This document shows positions 7,965-14,330 of a DNA stretch of 14,330 nt, piece after piece (the stretch's first letter is position 1; the number at the start of each line of letters is the position of its first letter). The notes beneath the pieces are model-generated. The model was not told the DNA's origin and ran no database searches. It saw nothing but the letters and a program-made list of their open reading frames with translations. Source of the DNA: Eudoraea sp. (GTDB lineage Bacteria; Bacteroidota; Bacteroidia; Flavobacteriales; Flavobacteriaceae); the NCBI GenBank assembly GCA_013042925.1, contig JABDPH010000045.1:1-14330 (forward strand). The letters are read 5' to 3'. Made by a program: the position numbers and the translations under genes.

Positions 7965-8041
7965 TAACAATTAAGTAACATAAATGCAATAAATGTTTAA
8001 CATAGGACTAACACCACCTTTACAAGACCGCACTTTATTTG
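7965..8041 (+). promoter_or_regulatory. Phased 11-bp repeat array (Pho-box-like) and -7 of the TonB receptor gene
   Basis: TAACA occurs at 7965, 7976, 7998 and 8009 and TTACA at 8020. All are on one strict 11-bp register; only the 7987 position (CAATA) is degenerate. The last repeat starts exactly 14 bp before TTTATTTG (8034-8041), a -7-like element with one mismatch. No TTG is present at the -33 position. Direct repeats with an 11-bp period placed where the -35 should be are the layout of PhoB-type Pho boxes in other bacteria. The same layout recurs before two more genes and a putative small RNA in this window. PhoB as the binder is inferred. Confidence 0.65.
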
Positions 8042-8050
8042 CACCAAGAA

Positions 8051-10936
8051 ATGAAAATCAACTTAATGAAATATCTATTAACTATTCTTTTTCTCTTTGT
8101 TGCTATGGCAGGCAGTGCTCAGGAACTTGGCAGTATTGTTGGCTTACTTACGGATAAAGAATATGATAACCAACCCTTGTCCTTTGCCAATGTTGTTTTA
8201 AAAGGCACCGCCAAAGGAACTACCTCAGATTTCGACGGAATATATGAGATACAAAATGTTGAGCCCGGTACGTATACAATAGTCTTTAGTTTCTTGGGAT
8301 ACGAAACACTAGAGATTCCGAATGTTATTGTAGAAAGTGGCAAAGTTACGGAGGTGAATACAGCCCTGGGGGCAGGAAGTGTTTCTTTAGAGGAGGTTGT
8401 AATTACCACATCGGTAGCCAGGGATTCCGAAATAGCCTTATTAATAGATCAGAAAAAGGCGTTGGAAATTAAAGAAGCCATTAGTGCAGAAGCATTAACC
8501 CGAAAAGGGATAGACGATGCAGCAGCGGCAGTAGCGCAAATTTCAGGGATCTCAAAACAACAAGGCTCTAGCGATGTATATGTTCGTGGATTGGGAGATC
8601 GCTACCAAAATACCACTATGAATGGACTTTCACTTCCTTCTAATAACGTTAATAAGAAGAATATAGATCTAGATCTCTTTTCATCGAATATCATTGAAAA
8701 CATTTCGGTGAGCAAAGCGTATACGCCTAGTTTCTATGGTGATTTTTCTGCAGGTAATGTAAATATAGATTCCAAAGAGTATGTGGGTAACGGCTACATG
8801 GAAGTATCACTGGGAAGTGGTGTAAACTCCAATGCAGCGGGGACAGATTTTGTGAGAAGTGAAGGAACTAGTTTTTTTGGTTTTTATAACCGATATGACA
8901 ACGATCCATTTGCCATTGTTCTTTCTCATGGTGTAGAACCAGAGAGTACTTCGAGCCCAACCAACATTTCGGGTGCCATAGAAGGAGGGTACTCTATTAA
9001 CCTCAGTAAGAAATCGAGGCTTAGCTTTTTTGGTATGGCCAGCTTTAGCAATGGTTTTGAATTCCGTGAAGGGCCAGCGCTAGATTTTACGAACGATATT
9101 AAAGTTCGTTTCCCTAATGTAGAGGAATACGCCTATAGTACAACCACAACGGCCTTGGGCAATATCTACTTTCGTATCGATGAAAGAAATAAAATTAAAT
9201 TCAGCTCCTTGTTCGTAAACAGTGCTACAGACGCTGTAGGCTATTATGGAATTGGAGGTGAAGGATTTAATAGAGATGGTTTTAGTAACAATGGCGATGG
9301 AGGATATTTCCAGTTAAACGTTCAATTTAATCAGGACATGATCTTTGTAAACCAGCTAAATGGTTCTCACTCTTTTGATGATAAATGGGGCCTGGATTGG
9401 GGTATTGGCTTCAACAAGGTATTCTCTGATGAACCAGATAGAAAACGAATCTCATTAGAGGATTACCAATTTGCGTTGGACAATGATCCTGTTACCAACC
9501 CCATCTTTTATGACAACATCGCATTTGACAATCAGCGGTACTTTCAAAGTGTAGAAGATGATGAACTAAGTAGTTATATTACCCTTAGTAACAAAGTTTC
9601 AGAAAAGATCACCCTAAATTTTGGCTACAACGGACGTAGAAAAGAACGTCGTTTTAATAACTGGCGTTATGGGTATTTAATTGATGATAAGAATGCCAAC
9701 CCTGTTACAGATCTTACAGACCTGGATAGCTTTTTTGATGTCTCTAACATTAATATTCCTCAAGGCTCCGGGCTATGGGATTTGTTCATAGTTAGGAACC
9801 CTCAAAATGTGGATATAGGACTTGTAAACAGACCCCAAGTTTATGAGAACACCTATACTGGTAATTTAGATGTCCATGCAGGTTTCATAACGGCAGAACT
9901 TAATTTGAGTGATAAATGGTTGTTAATACCAGGATTTCGTATTGAAGCGTACAAGCAATCCATTGTATATGACGTGATCAACCCGGTACCTACAGATCCG
10001 GGATTCAGAGAGGGTTATGAAAACATTTATCTACCTAGTTTAAATGTCCGATACGCCCTTACTGAAGATGCTAACCTTCGATTCTCTTTTAGCAAAACGG
10101 CCTCTTTCCCAGAATTTAAGGAAGCTGCCAATTTCGTATATGAAGGTGTTACGCAGCGTGTGGGTGGTAACCCAGACCTTTTGGGAAAACCAGACGGCAC
10201 GGGTCCAATCTTATCTGAAATCTATAACTACGATCTTAAATATGAATGGTTTCCTAACCGAGGAGAACTAGTTTCGTTAGCGGCATTTGCCAAGACAATT
10301 AATGACCCGGTAAACAGGGTTGTGGCCACCGATGCCACAGGAAATCAGCGTTATTTCAGAACAGGAGACCAGGCGAAGGTATATGGAATGGAAGTTGAAA
10401 TCCGAAAAAATATACTAACAGATGCAGAAGAAAACGGAGTAATGACAGTTGGTGTTAACGCCGCCTACACACACACGGAGCAAGACCTTAAAACAGTAGC
10501 TACTTCCGATGGGTTTACCTTCGGGACTTCCTTTGCAGACAGAACAACGGATGAGTTGGAAGGTGCTTCCCCAATTATCGTAAATGCAGATATAAATTAT
10601 AGCCCTGAGTTTAAAAACTATAAACCGCGAGCAACCTTAGCGTATTCCTATTTCTCAGATCGTATCTACGCGTTGGGTAGTGGAAATCTTGGCAACATAG
10701 TAGAAAAAGCGGTGCCGACTTTAAACTTTGTATGGAAAAATGCTTTTGGAGAAAATTTCGAAGCGGATTTATCCATTAAAAATATCCTGGATCCTACTAT
10801 TTCACTGGTAAGGGAAAACACTGGCGTTGAAGATACAAACCCTTTACTTCAAGGTTTTGTTAAGGACGGTGATGTTACATTACGTGAATATAAACGAGGC
10901 ATGAATATTGGCCTATCTCTTAAATATAAATTCTAA
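8051..10936 (+). CDS. TonB-dependent outer-membrane receptor with N-terminal carboxypeptidase-regulatory-like domain
   Basis: A 961-aa active importer of the outer membrane, powered by TonB-ExbBD. Order of parts: signal peptide (about 1-24, ending AGSAQ), a CarboxypepD_reg-like beta-sandwich (about 28-115, with SFANVVLKGT and GTYTIVFSFLGYE), a plug domain (about 125-250, with AVAQISGISKQQGSSDVYVRGLGDRYQNTTMNG), and a 22-strand-type barrel ending in SLKYKF with the terminal Phe. ATG 8051 was chosen; the in-frame TTG at 8039 belongs to the -7 element, and ATG 8066 is a possible alternative. A beta-helix lipoprotein follows 20 nt later with no terminator between, so they form an operon. The Pho-box-like array and the neighbouring OprO/OprP-type porin suggest uptake of a phosphorus source under starvation (inference). 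The ligand is unknown. Confidence 0.93.
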   Translation: MKINLMKYLLTILFLFVAMAGSAQELGSIVGLLTDKEYDNQPLSFANVVLKGTAKGTTSDFDGIYEIQNVEPGTYTIVFSFLGYETLEIPNVIVESGKVTEVNTALGAGSVSLEEVVITTSVARDSEIALLIDQKKALEIKEAISAEALTRKGIDDAAAAVAQISGISKQQGSSDVYVRGLGDRYQNTTMNGLSLPSNNVNKKNIDLDLFSSNIIENISVSKAYTPSFYGDFSAGNVNIDSKEYVGNGYMEVSLGSGVNSNAAGTDFVRSEGTSFFGFYNRYDNDPFAIVLSHGVEPESTSSPTNISGAIEGGYSINLSKKSRLSFFGMASFSNGFEFREGPALDFTNDIKVRFPNVEEYAYSTTTTALGNIYFRIDERNKIKFSSLFVNSATDAVGYYGIGGEGFNRDGFSNNGDGGYFQLNVQFNQDMIFVNQLNGSHSFDDKWGLDWGIGFNKVFSDEPDRKRISLEDYQFALDNDPVTNPIFYDNIAFDNQRYFQSVEDDELSSYITLSNKVSEKITLNFGYNGRRKERRFNNWRYGYLIDDKNANPVTDLTDLDSFFDVSNINIPQGSGLWDLFIVRNPQNVDIGLVNRPQVYENTYTGNLDVHAGFITAELNLSDKWLLIPGFRIEAYKQSIVYDVINPVPTDPGFREGYENIYLPSLNVRYALTEDANLRFSFSKTASFPEFKEAANFVYEGVTQRVGGNPDLLGKPDGTGPILSEIYNYDLKYEWFPNRGELVSLAAFAKTINDPVNRVVATDATGNQRYFRTGDQAKVYGMEVEIRKNILTDAEENGVMTVGVNAAYTHTEQDLKTVATSDGFTFGTSFADRTTDELEGASPIIVNADINYSPEFKNYKPRATLAYSYFSDRIYALGSGNLGNIVEKAVPTLNFVWKNAFGENFEADLSIKNILDPTISLVRENTGVEDTNPLLQGFVKDGDVTLREYKRGMNIGLSLKYKF

Positions 10937-12156: not shown

Positions 12157-12179
12157 ATAGTACCTCTTAAAAAATATGA

Positions 12180-12212
12180 AAAAGTCCTGCTGGTAGGCAG
12201 GACTTTTCTTTT
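12180..12212 (+). terminator. Intrinsic terminator of the receptor-lipoprotein operon
   Basis: A perfect 11-bp stem AAAAGTCCTGC / GCAGGACTTTT (12180-12190 with 12197-12207) has a 6-nt loop and continues into TTTTCTTTT. It separates the operon from the next gene, which has its own promoter array starting 11 bp later. Confidence 0.92.
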
Positions 12213-12222
12213 GTTAATTATC

Positions 12223-12277
12223 TTACGAAATGTTAATCTGTGCGTAACCTTAGTTTTACATAGATCTGTTTCCTTTG
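12223..12277 (+). promoter_or_regulatory. Phased 11-bp repeat array (Pho-box-like) and -7 before the small secreted protein
   Basis: Degenerate repeats lie at 12223 (TTACG), 12234 (TAATC), 12245 (TAACC) and 12256 (TTACA), exactly 11 bp apart. TTCCTTTG, a one-mismatch -7, starts at 12270, 14 bp after the last repeat, the same distance as at the receptor and porin promoters. No -33 TTG is present. The predicted leader to ATG 12298 is about 15 nt. Confidence 0.5.
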
Positions 12278-12297
12278 TAGCAGAAATTTTTTCTAAA

Positions 12298-12687
12298 ATG
12301 AAGTATATTATTTTATTTGGTACGTTACTTTTTACAAGCCTACTGTTCTCCCAAGAATCTGGTACCGTTGCAGGGACAATTATGGATAAAGAAGTCTTTA
12401 ACGAGCCTTTAATTTTTGCTGACGTCCGCTTAAAAAATACTCCTAAAAAAGTACAGACCAATTTCCGTGGTAATTTTCAAATAACTGACGTACCTCCGGG
12501 CAACTATACCATAGTAATTACCTATCTCGGCTACGAAAAAGTAGAAATTCCGGTCATAGTAGAACAAGAAGAAGTCACTAGAATTACGCAGGTGTTATCT
12601 GCCAAAAAATTGAGCATGGAAGATATGTCCACGCTGGTTACTGCCAAAGTAACAGATAGGGCATTTATATCCAAAGATTCGGAATAG
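12298..12687 (+). CDS. Free-standing secreted carboxypeptidase-regulatory-like domain protein
   Basis: A 129-aa protein with a signal peptide (MKYIILFGTLLFTSLLFSQ) followed by one CarboxypepD_reg-like beta-sandwich. It aligns end to end with the N-terminal domain of the TonB receptor in this window, sharing signal-peptide start MKY, QE.G, DKE, an FA-V-LK-T block, YTIV...LGYE, EIP and IVE. It stops just where the receptor's plug would begin, with a tail ending in KDSE. It is a paralogue of the receptor's N-terminus without plug or barrel. Its own phased promoter and its own terminator indicate an intact gene unit and not random debris. It may bind a partner of the receptor's N-terminal domain in the periplasm, or be a remnant of a deleted receptor copy; the sequence cannot decide. 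ATG 12298 was chosen because the upstream in-frame TTG (12211) lies in the preceding terminator. Confidence 0.85.
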   Translation: MKYIILFGTLLFTSLLFSQESGTVAGTIMDKEVFNEPLIFADVRLKNTPKKVQTNFRGNFQITDVPPGNYTIVITYLGYEKVEIPVIVEQEEVTRITQVLSAKKLSMEDMSTLVTAKVTDRAFISKDSE

Positions 12688-12717
12688 CTACACAAATCAC
12701 CTATTTAAGACATAACT

Positions 12718-12757
12718 AAAAAAGGAACATCCCTCCAAACGGCGGGATGTTCCTTTT
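12718..12757. terminator. Bidirectional intrinsic terminator between convergent genes
   Basis: A 14-bp perfect stem (AAAAGGAACATCCC at 12720-12733 with its complement at 12744-12757) has a 10-nt loop. It gives four Ts on the plus strand and six on the minus strand (A run 12718-12723). It lies 30 bp after the small secreted protein and about 20 bp after the end of the convergent YwqK-like gene, serving both. Confidence 0.85.
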
Positions 12758-12777
12758 GAAATCTGTTATTTCAACTA

Positions 12778-13137
12778 TTAGTGATTGTCGGCTAGTTTTG
12801 TCGAGGTTTTAACACCATTAATACTGGCAATGGCGTTATTACTATATTCTACCTTTTTCATAGTATTGTCTGACCAAAAAGACCAGGTTCCTGTTCTGAG
12901 ACCCTTCTCGTAAGATCCCTGAGAAACTTTTACTCCTTCCTCATTATAACTGATCCATTCCCCATGAAGCTTTCTATCCAGGTTAAAAGTTCCCTTTTGA
13001 CTTATTTCACCATTATCATGATAATAAACGGCCTCTATTAATCCTGTTTCTTCATTTAGTGATAGCTCTTTGTCCTTTTGACCATAGGTGCAAACGGTTA
13101 GTAACATCACAAACAAACCTATAATATTCTTTTTCAT
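12778..13137 (-). CDS. Secreted MORN/YwqK-like repeat protein
   Basis: A 119-aa protein with a signal peptide (MKKNIIGLFVMLLTVCTYG). It then carries two to three copies of the MORN_2-like repeat seen in YwqK-family proteins: YYHDNGEISQKGTFNLDRKLHG, then EWISYNEEGVKVSQGSYEKGLRTG, then TWSFWSDNTMKKVEY. Such repeats make short beta-hairpins; in Bacteroidota the family is widespread and mostly uncharacterised. I chose ATG 13137 (MKKNII) as the start because it begins a normal signal peptide; the in-frame ATG at 13146 would add MID. Databases often call this family an antitoxin, but no toxin gene is adjacent and the protein is predicted to be exported, so that label is not supported here. Its promoter looks constitutive, unlike its neighbours. 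Confidence 0.8.
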   Translation of the reverse strand: MKKNIIGLFVMLLTVCTYGQKDKELSLNEETGLIEAVYYHDNGEISQKGTFNLDRKLHGEWISYNEEGVKVSQGSYEKGLRTGTWSFWSDNTMKKVEYSNNAIASINGVKTSTKLADNH

Positions 13138-13157
13138 GTCAATCATAATTTATACTA

Positions 13158-13187
13158 TAAAGTTACTGCTTTTTAACTTTAATTCAA
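13158..13187 (-). promoter_or_regulatory. Bacteroidota-type promoter for the YwqK-like gene
   Basis: On the minus strand TTG (13187-13185), a 19-bp spacer and TAACTTTA (13165-13158) match the -33/-7 consensus with one mismatch. Unlike the flanking plus-strand promoters it has a -33 and lacks an in-register 11-bp repeat array. Confidence 0.5.
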
Positions 13188-13272
13188 TGTTAAGTTTACA
13201 ATTATTTTACATTATAAACGCATTCTTATTGCCTTATAGTATTTCAAGTAAGATCATTTCTATGTAAATTTT

Positions 13273-13327
13273 TAATGATTACTTAATAGTTTGGTTACAA
13301 TTAGGACATTTTAATACATAATATTTG
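13273..13327 (+). promoter_or_regulatory. Weak phased repeat array and -7 of a putative small RNA
   Basis: TAATG (13273), TAATA (13284) and TTACA (13295) are 11 bp apart. One further register position (13306, ACATT) is degenerate, and AATATTTG, a one-mismatch -7, starts at 13320, 14 bp after it. The register relative to the -7 is identical to the other three arrays, but the slot nearest the -7 is poor. The region is AT-rich, so chance matches are easier here. Confidence 0.35.
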
Positions 13328-13367
13328 TACCGTGTTTAAACACAACAATTCGGTAATTCATATAATT

Positions 13368-13383
13368 TATTAGTTTTTGTCGA
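13368..13383 (+). repeat. Left arm of a 16-bp perfect inverted repeat (pairs with 13487-13502)
   Basis: TATTAGTTTTTGTCGA here is the exact reverse complement of TCGACAAAAACTAATA at 13487-13502. The arms are 103 bp apart and enclose the terminator and the porin promoter. The left arm lies in the putative small RNA. Confidence 0.9.
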
Positions 13384-13405
13384 CTAATTATTTTGAATGC
13401 TGTAA

Positions 13406-13435
13406 CTGCCCTTGGCCAGGGCAGTTTTTGTTTTT
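13406..13435 (+). terminator. Intrinsic terminator upstream of the porin promoter
   Basis: Stem CTGCCCT / AGGGCAG (13406-13412 with 13418-13424), 5-nt loop, then TTTTTGTTTTT (13425-13435). It follows no coding gene on the plus strand; the nearest upstream plus-strand gene already ends at its own terminator near 12757. It therefore implies a separate non-coding transcript. Confidence 0.88.
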
Positions 13436-13439
13436 ATGA

Positions 13440-13483
13440 TAATATTAACTTAACGTTCAGGTAACATAGAAATTAGTACTTTG
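13440..13483 (+). promoter_or_regulatory. Phased 11-bp repeat array (Pho-box-like) and -7 of the porin gene
   Basis: TAATA (13440), TAACG (13451) and TAACA (13462) are exactly 11 bp apart, and nnnnTTTG (GTACTTTG, 13476-13483) starts 14 bp after the last. There is no -33 TTG. A start near 13488 would give a 20-nt leader. The association with an OprO/OprP-type porin is the main reason to read these arrays as phosphate-responsive. Confidence 0.6.
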
Positions 13484-13486
13484 TCT

Positions 13487-13502
13487 TCGACAAAAACTAA
13501 TA
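13487..13502 (+). repeat. Right arm of the 16-bp inverted repeat, in the porin leader
   Basis: TCGACAAAAACTAATA covers nearly all of the predicted porin 5' leader and ends 5 nt before the AUG at 13508. It is perfectly complementary to 13368-13383. The start codon itself overlaps the small palindrome TACTAGTA (13501-13508). Confidence 0.9.
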
Positions 13503-13507
13503 CTAGT

Positions 13508-14330
13508 ATGAAGACTAAATTTTTTGCCTACGCGGTTATCTCCCTCTTTCTTTTTTCAGTACAAGCTCAGGAATCTAATGCCCCTGCCTTTGGTAAGGGT
13601 CTTTTTAATTTAGTAGGAAAGGATAGTACCTGGACTATGAAAATTGGAACTCGTATGCAGTTCTTAACTATTGCCGAATGGTCAGAGGATGACAACGGCG
13701 GGTATGGAGATCCGGAACAGAACTTTTTAATACGACGTGCTCGATTAAAATTCGACGGTTTTGCTTACAGCCCCAAACTTAAATATAAGATAGAGTTGGG
13801 CCTTTCCAATAGAGATATTTCAGGTGCCTCCGAATTTACCAGAAATACACCACGTTACATTCTGGATGCCGTGGTTATGTGGAATTTTTATGGAAACTTT
13901 GAACTTTGGGCAGGGCAGACCAAACTCCCTGGCAATATAGAACGAGTAATTTCTTCCGGGAACTTGCAACAAGTAGATCGTTCGTTGGTCAATAGTCGAT
14001 TTAATATAGATCGTGATGTAGGGTTTCAGCTAAGGCATCACTTTAATCTATCAGAAAATTTCCTTGTACGCGAAAAATTCGCTTTCTCACAGGGTGAAGG
14101 CCGCAATGTAACCGAAGGGAACTTAGGCGGGCATCAGTACACAGGCCGACTCGAATTTTTACCTTTTGGTAAATTTCAAAGTAAGGGCGATTACAGTGGA
14201 AGTGATCTAAAACGCGAAGCAAAACCCAAACTTATGTTTGCCGTTAATTATGACATCAATAAAGATGCCGTTAAAACAAGAAGTAACCTGGGTTCTTACA
14301 TGAGGAATGATGTGGGATTATACGAGACTA
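13508..14330 (+). CDS. OprO/OprP-family phosphate-selective porin, N-terminal part (3' end off window)
   Basis: The frame is open from ATG 13508 to the right edge (274 codons). A signal peptide (MKTKFFAYAVISLFLFSVQAQ) is followed by sequence typical of the phosphate-selective porin O/P family: WTMKIGTRMQFL near the N-terminus, then NFLIRRARLKFDGFAYSPKLKYKIELGLS, then FELWAGQTKLPGNIERVISSGNLQQVDRSLVNSRFNIDRDVGFQLRHHF. Members are trimeric 16-stranded barrels; in Pseudomonas they take up phosphate or polyphosphate, while many Bacteroidota relatives are untested. The phased repeat array upstream supports a phosphate-starvation role here. A small RNA may pair with its leader. Substrate specificity is inferred from family and context. 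Confidence 0.88.
   Translation, partial: MKTKFFAYAVISLFLFSVQAQESNAPAFGKGLFNLVGKDSTWTMKIGTRMQFLTIAEWSEDDNGGYGDPEQNFLIRRARLKFDGFAYSPKLKYKIELGLSNRDISGASEFTRNTPRYILDAVVMWNFYGNFELWAGQTKLPGNIERVISSGNLQQVDRSLVNSRFNIDRDVGFQLRHHFNLSENFLVREKFAFSQGEGRNVTEGNLGGHQYTGRLEFLPFGKFQSKGDYSGSDLKREAKPKLMFAVNYDINKDAVKTRSNLGSYMRNDVGLYET

Follow-up and report, generated by a model that had tools for sequence, protein, structure and literature searches.

What is the function of a perfect inverted repeat that links a non-coding, terminator-bearing stretch of DNA to the leader of a porin gene in Eudoraea? We analysed 14,330 nt of contig JABDPH010000045.1 from Eudoraea sp. (Flavobacteriaceae), hereafter the window. An earlier examination of the letters alone (the sequence-only reading) had proposed that the stretch encodes a terminated small RNA (sRNA), tandem to the porin gene and on the same strand, which pairs with the porin leader. 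This proposal is supported at the sequence level by the recurrence of the terminator and by matched changes in the two arms of the repeat, and we regard 13328-13435 as very probably encoding a discrete sRNA whose pairing partner is the porin leader.

The inverted repeat and its locus

The genes around the repeat, and the arm that would serve as target, are as follows.

8039-10936 (+): TonB-dependent receptor of the same locus (PF00593, PF07715, PF13715)
12778-13146 (-): divergent MORN_2-like protein (Pfam MORN_2 below the cut-off, 25.7 versus 29.6 bits)
13487-13502 (+): target arm in the porin 5′ leader, with pairing kept in 131 unique loci
13508-14330 (+): porin, Porin_O_P PF07396 (Pfam E 1.8e-9), cut by the contig end

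The 16-bp repeat noticed in the sequence-only reading proved to be exact: the left arm, TATTAGTTTTTGTCGA (13368-13383), and the right arm, TCGACAAAAACTAATA (13487-13502), are reverse complements of each other. When the 361-nt intergenic region (13147-13507) was shuffled with dinucleotide composition preserved (n = 300), the longest perfect inverted repeat was 13 bp, and 16 bp was reached in 0/300 shuffles. The right arm was found where it had been placed, within the predicted porin leader, and it stops 5 nt ahead of the porin ATG (13508-13510). The terminator had been read as belonging to no gene, and we could likewise assign it to no visible gene because the nearest notable upstream ORF (12778-13146) lies on the minus strand. 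This MORN_2-like gene is locus context, outside the RNA pair.

Other features of the window and of its paralogous locus were recorded alongside. A CarboxypepD_reg-like domain protein is encoded at 12211-12687 (+), between the TonB cluster and the sRNA. Weak BSnc120 matches at 12161-12218 and 12706-12785 (-) scored 29-32 bits against a gathering score of 114 and are probably terminator hairpins. A tRNA scan of the window found none.

Besides the window's locus, the same genome contains a paralogous one (C434). Downstream of its porin come a PHO4-type phosphate transporter and a Na/Pi cotransporter, the latter encoded on the opposite strand. This genome (G000) thus has two paralogous phosphate loci, C434 and C517, each with an sRNA and a porin; another genome of the same genus (G001) also gave two matches. 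In the paralogous locus, the target 13-mer is found once more as an exact copy, the third, where the divergent MORN_2-like gene has its stop codon (L003:2514-2526, minus strand). Opposite-strand matches to TTAGTTTTTGTC in the MORN_2-like stop region were seen in 4 of the 129 loci having at least 700 nt upstream, and the window version is degenerate.

The predicted sRNA and its folds

The two transcripts, sRNA and porin mRNA, and their ends are predicted. The elements of the sRNA are listed below.

13324-13327 (+): TTTG, predicted -7 element of the sRNA promoter, conserved in the alignment
13328-13435 (+): sRNA gene, predicted extent (covariance model match 13328-13432, 100 bits; fold z -2.99; no covering Rfam match)
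13332-13343 (+): 5′ hairpin GTGTTTAAACAC, with a stem of at least 4 bp in 71/100 sRNA 5′ ends
13368-13383 (+): antisense arm (seed) of the sRNA, exact complement of 13487-13502
13370-13387 (+): seed hairpin with loop 13375-13382, UUUUGUCG (RNAalifold on 27 sequences)
13404-13435 (+): intrinsic terminator, 9-bp stem 13404-13412 / 13418-13426, U-tract to 13435

TTTG is taken by us to be a -7 element on the basis of the Bacteroidota -7 consensus. The fold of 13328-13435 was more stable than those of shuffled sequences (1/200 as good), and the centroid structure consists of a 5′ hairpin, the seed hairpin and the terminator. The 100-bit match has to be read with the fact that the window sRNA is a member of the model's own training set.

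The 5′ hairpin varies widely in sequence among loci and its form is often retained, since a stem of at least 4 bp was observed in the above 71 cases as against 34 expected from mononucleotide shuffles. This count used 100 of 131 rows; in the rest TTTG was not found or was too near the end, or the row was a duplicate.

The seed hairpin can be drawn as TTAGT(TTTTGTCG)ACTAA, and in the minimum-energy fold the stem is lengthened to 7 bp, leaving a 6-nt loop. Its 8-nt loop had been described as matching the predicted start of the porin mRNA, and the loop is indeed complementary to CGACAAAA at that predicted 5′ end. Six of the eight loop bases (the inner six) were unpaired with probability >0.99 in the window sRNA, whereas in 130 relatives the mean unpaired probability of these bases was 0.61-0.75, a laxer loop accessibility than in the window. 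The five pairs of the stem were almost invariant among the 27 sequences used for RNAalifold, and double changes were absent. The 3′ arm of this stem (ACUAA) resembles the target.

The terminator behaved differently from the seed stem in the same RNAalifold analysis: its consensus stem has seven pairs, five of them with double compensatory changes. The 131 loci had 83 distinct terminator stems among them, and the 7 nt after the stem contained 5.6 T on average; because these loci had passed a hairpin filter, only the variety of stems is informative. The sequence-only reading had suggested looking for the same terminator upstream of porin genes in relatives, and it recurs there with compensatory changes.

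Distribution of the pair in Flavobacteriaceae

BLAST with 13280-13520 gave matches in 25/99 genomes, the window's own included, and in 0/39 genomes of other families. An alignment of 23 loci (from which the upstream part of L031 is absent) showed a single order: repeats, TTTG, sRNA, terminator, repeats, TTTG, a leader resembling CGACAAAAACTAAT, and porin. A covariance model of 13328-13435, built from 27 sRNAs, matched 160/395 Flavobacteriaceae genomes and 101/203 genera, a total that is an undercount because there are sRNAs that the model missed, and the AAATCGTTAAG subfamily had no model of its own. When genomes were drawn from the whole order, 21/393 contained a match and 20 of these were Flavobacteriaceae. 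The remaining match (G087, from another family) lacks a seed, although a terminator is present, and was set aside as a chance hit.

A pattern scan found at least 118 loci; among the 80 matches listed were Arenibacter, Algibacter, Tenacibaculum, Polaribacter, Winogradskyella and Eudoraea. The titles of these 80 records either state Flavobacteriales or name Flavobacteriaceae. The predicted sRNA-porin pair is thus family-wide in Flavobacteriaceae and not local, a point that the sequence-only reading had not seen; it had likewise missed the likeness of the repeats in the two promoters and the possible persistence of pairing when the arms are far apart. Separately, the non-porin matches to TTTG-N-GACAAAAACTAA, a pattern present in 138/395 genomes, were rejected as background; they include sites, TTTGAAGGTCAGACAAAAACTAA, that resemble gyrB coding sequence.

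Conservation and co-variation of the two arms

From 155 locus records, 131 unique sRNA-leader pairs were obtained, and 20 records gave none. The latter comprised sRNAs without an adjacent leader or porin (L022, L052, L211, L254 and L316), a leader without a porin ORF (L023/L030, one locus), a seed for which no leader passed the filter, though the TTTG-N-GACAAAAACTAA scan lists an adjoining target (L231), a locus with visible arms that failed the filters (L265), a further dropped record (L220), a contig end (L320), a distal sRNA (L321) and pattern matches at other loci (L309, L310, L317, L318, L319, L322 and L323). An inverted copy of sRNA-like and leader sequence at a contig end (L308, in G157) is probably an assembly chimera and also gave no pair. 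A pattern-picked set of named records was excluded from the pairing, duplex-energy and thinned counts, and one alignment that mixed antisense matches was left unused.

A 13-bp core of pairing was retained across the 131 unique pairs. Positions 0-7 were paired in 131/131, position -1 in 122, positions 8-11 in 122-125, position 12 in 102 and position 13 in 96, the search expressions having fixed part of this core before the counts were made. Outside the core, pairing was found at positions -4 to -2 in 19-21 of the 131 pairs, at 14 in 28, at 15 in 50 and at 16 in 71. Columnwise pairing was close to the expectation for independent columns and exceeded it only at position 10 (122 versus 117.6) and position 12 (102 versus 90.1), because most core columns are nearly invariant. 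Since column statistics add little, the case for co-evolution rests on the variants, that is, on lineages with matched changes and on comparisons of own with exchanged duplexes.

Duplexes of sRNAs with their own leaders were more stable than those with leaders of other loci (-19.7 versus -17.9 kcal/mol, 144 pairs; 0/5000 permutations). The difference was also seen in the 53 non-canonical pairs (-19.9 versus -16.6 kcal/mol; 0/5000 permutations) and when one pair was taken per distinct sRNA arm (n = 60; -20.1 versus -17.4 kcal/mol; 0/5000 permutations), a thinning that lowers relatedness without removing it. When either partner of the 53 non-canonical pairs was swapped for the canonical one, 22 natural pairs beat both swaps, 4 fell below both and the rest were mixed.

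Individual lineages show how the arms changed. Leader changes were often compatible with wobble pairing, as at position 8, where C is replaced by T opposite G in 10 leaders. Matched changes on the two sides were found in L276 (GTTTTAGTC with GACTAAAAC), L270/L271 (TTAAG with CTTAA), L226 (ATCAG with CTGAT), L263 (GG with CC), L380 (TTTTAG facing CTAAAA), L325 and L350, and the AAATCGTTAAG subfamily faces CTTAAAACGATTT. In L381 the T run and the A run are each one base shorter, and the leader has a further insertion. An inserted A in five leaders bulges the duplex. Co-varying changes in the arms, which the sequence-only reading had named as a check on its proposal, are therefore present: where a lineage had changed one arm, a matching change in the other was common. 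Conserved complementarity to the initiation region of a target, with matched changes, is one feature expected of base-pairing sRNAs, and as far as sequence can tell, this is what was found here.

Promoter repeats and a possible phosphate connection

Short direct repeats precede both predicted transcripts.

13272-13299 (+): Pho-box-like direct repeats upstream of the sRNA, TTAAT 13272, TTAAT 13283, TTACA 13295
13445-13465 (+): direct repeats upstream of the porin, TTAAC 13445, TTAAC 13450, GTAAC 13461
13474-13483 (+): porin -7 region TAGTACTTTG, with a TTTG/TTTA motif

TTTG could be located in 100 unique sRNA promoters (from 131 rows), and in these the repeat words occurred at -52, -41 and -29 from TTTG in 86, 73 and 71 cases, respectively. 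For the porin, words at -41, -30 and -19 from TTTG were present in 89, 104 and 107 of 129 unique promoters. Both promoters therefore carry words of the TTAAT/TTAAC type in 11-12 bp steps, with the porin array about one repeat nearer TTTG. TTTG or TTTA followed after 4-6 nt by GAC was found in 129/131 rows. This GAC sits 14-25 nt ahead of the porin start codon, giving a leader of about 20 nt that is nearly all target.

The similarity of the repeats in the two promoters suggests that one regulator, perhaps PhoB, is common to both, and PhoB control of the sRNA and porin promoters is plausible from the sequence pattern. Similar TTAACA elements were seen by eye upstream of the TonB gene. In Flavobacterium johnsoniae at low phosphate, the TonB transporter and the lipoprotein of the phoBR locus were up by log2 8.0 and log2 9.9, respectively (PMC8115612), and the TonB receptor of the window is like this Pi-induced transporter in position, the one feature by which the two were likened. 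By contrast, OprP of F. johnsoniae (Fjoh_0542) was not induced by Pi depletion (log2 -1.3, p 0.25; PMC8115612).

A proposed mode of action

We consider it likely that an sRNA of about 108 nt forms a loop-first duplex on the porin leader and blocks translation, with PhoB probably acting on both promoters. Expression of the sRNA, repression, loop-first kinetics and the role of PhoB are elements that we infer. The loop of the central sRNA hairpin, UUUUGUCG, would first contact CGACAAAA of the porin mRNA, at its predicted 5′ end. Since the 3′ arm of the hairpin stem mimics the target, strand exchange would then extend the pairing into this stem and yield a duplex of about 13-16 bp over the leader up to -6. 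Such a duplex would most likely block ribosome loading on the porin mRNA. If one regulator, probably PhoB, switches on both sRNA and porin, the sRNA would cap or delay porin output.

Repression is our best guess for the direction of the effect. Bacteroidota lack Shine-Dalgarno sequences as a phylum, and initiation depends on structure and on the bases just upstream of AUG (PMC6847099). Pairing of FopS-10 at -6 abolishes translation of a SusC mRNA in Bacteroides thetaiotaomicron (PMC11697453), and repression is favoured here because the duplex in the window also reaches -6; AUG and -1 to -5 remain outside it. Alternatively, the sRNA could pair with the leader and activate, the duplex shielding the mRNA 5′ end from decay or opening an inhibitory fold. 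This would agree with the coverage of the predicted first bases of the porin mRNA, and a coherent co-activator could well have promoter repeats like those of its target. However, -6 falls inside the critical initiation window of Bacteroidota (PMC11697453), pairing of FopS and GibS in the start-codon region represses (PMC11697453, PMC7366714), and a leader of this length leaves little to be opened, so we regard activation as unlikely.

Leader motif, separated pairs and alternative readings

We compared porin loci with and without the sRNA, using E <=1e-100 as our chosen cut-off for porin orthologs. An ortholog was present in 214/395 genomes, 150 with and 64 without a model match; 10/395 had an sRNA match alone and 171/395 had neither (Fisher p 1e-43, uncorrected for relatedness). 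As controls we took 40 of the 64 porin genomes without a model match, those with the better porin matches. Thirteen of these 40 loci hold an adjacent sRNA seed that the model missed, and GACAAAAAC was present in the leader in 13/13. Among the loci without an adjacent seed, only 3/27 had this motif (Fisher p 5e-8). The leader motif is lacking in 24 loci, a pattern that fits either loss or non-gain. Of those 24 motif-free porin loci, 20 still have TTAAC-type words within the 120 nt examined upstream. Because the motif is mostly absent without an adjacent sRNA although promoter words usually stay, it goes with the sRNA and not with the promoter or translation as such.

Two of the three motif-bearing exceptions (G354 and G138) have a seed about 3 kb upstream. 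In the third (G385) the leader motif is kept, and no sRNA was found with the patterns used. Altogether four genomes (G138, G307, G354 and G310) have the seed and terminator 2.9-4.0 kb from the leader with both arms kept, and in all four the sRNA is closely followed by opposite-strand ORFs, which by eye resemble a carbonic anhydrase and a SulP transporter. In G307, G354, G310 and G118 (L366, L369, L371 and L372), the seed starts 38-81 nt past the last sense codon of the upstream ORF, and the sRNA in these genomes may have derived from a 3′ UTR.

These comparisons also bear on whether the porin is one of several targets and the main task of the sRNA lies with another phosphate-response gene. The sRNA is retained without an adjacent porin in G023, G143 and G156, and the target in G310 precedes a paralogous Porin_O_P gene. 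Against this, target-like 13-mers with at most one mismatch were not enriched in the window's own genome, which is 76.5% complete (18 versus 27 in the control). The exact target 13-mer occurs there five times, always within the two paralogous loci. On balance we find this reading improbable. As a separate observation, the sRNA in L022, L211 and L384 lies beside an ORF that looks like a PiT-type phosphate transporter, with no porin adjoining, which hints at other targets.

The sequence-only reading had offered attenuation as its alternative, with a single long leader whose two arms pair around the terminator. Such a leader would start from the upstream promoter. The arms are indeed on the same strand and adjacent in the 23 aligned loci, and the sRNA-leader cofold is stable. 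On the other hand, the stretch from terminator to porin has conserved promoter-like repeats and a conserved TTTG, and the same seed occurs at two loci of the window's own genome. An attenuator would place terminator and gene in one transcript, and this does not hold for the four genomes with distant arms. Separation of the arms with opposite-strand ORFs between them disfavours attenuation, which we now consider highly improbable, and favours action in trans.

It is extremely unlikely that the two arms serve as DNA operators bound by a protein, with no RNA pairing: the strong conservation of the arms would suit such sites, but the wobble-compatible leader changes, the matched double changes, the matched change in run length and the missing right arm in 24/27 porin loci without an adjacent sRNA, 20 of which retain TTAAC-type words, argue against it. 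A cis-antisense RNA was ruled out, since sRNA and target are on the same strand and do not overlap.

Relation to known sRNAs

A base-pairing sRNA directed against an outer-membrane transporter is of a known kind; what appears to be new is this particular sRNA family, together with the neighbouring target that it usually has and the likeness of the repeats in the two promoters. Rfam searches of the window and 12 relatives gave only matches below the gathering score, none covering the window sRNA. MicF, MicC and other enterobacterial porin sRNAs repress by pairing with the porin leader, depend on Hfq and have multiple targets. The window sRNA would likewise pair with a porin leader, whereas Hfq (PF17209) was found in 0/21 genomes here, the window's own being incomplete; 5/14 control genomes were positive.

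The FopS family, with RbpB, in B. thetaiotaomicron is similar in that its sRNAs pair near the start codon (-6) of outer-membrane transporter mRNAs and block translation, and it differs in having 14 paralogs, a 5′ seed and several SusC-type targets (PMC11697453). In contrast, the window sRNA has a seed in a central hairpin loop, a Porin_O_P target that usually adjoins it, and a place in a phosphate locus. GibS of B. thetaiotaomicron is also a terminated intergenic sRNA that acts on translation initiation regions, with one affected operon adjacent, but it has a largely unfolded 5′ seed and a role in carbon metabolism (PMC7366714). Both FopS and GibS have the seed in a mostly single-stranded 5′ part, while here the seed is part of a predicted hairpin and is separated from the predicted 5′ end by 40 nt. 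The comparison with FopS and GibS was one of described features.

Rfp18 of F. psychrophilum is a conserved Flavobacterium sRNA whose third stem-loop is predicted to pair with mRNAs of metalloproteases, a description by which we set it apart; the word "porin" is absent from the main text of that study (PMC9723704). No description of the window sRNA was found in searches of open-access main texts. It is possible that it is an unnamed entry in a transcriptome table, e.g. among the F. psychrophilum Rfp RNAs (PMC9723704).

Implications

Our preferred reading, an sRNA that acts on the porin leader, can be taken one step further, and we offer this extension tentatively, giving it somewhat less than an even chance. 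The sRNA may be a dedicated, Hfq-free phosphate regulator with a single target: PhoB would fire the tandem promoters, the sRNA, with a copy of the target in its stem, would invade the mRNA 5′ end from the loop, and porin would be made only above a threshold or after a delay, the pair being locked in sequence even when 3-4 kb apart. The question then is what use a phosphate porin would have for a repressor that is perhaps induced alongside it. RNA-based control is poorly charted in Flavobacteriaceae, and the window sRNA offers an unusually clear target together with natural swap variants. It thereby enables direct tests of how an sRNA blocks initiation without a Shine-Dalgarno sequence.
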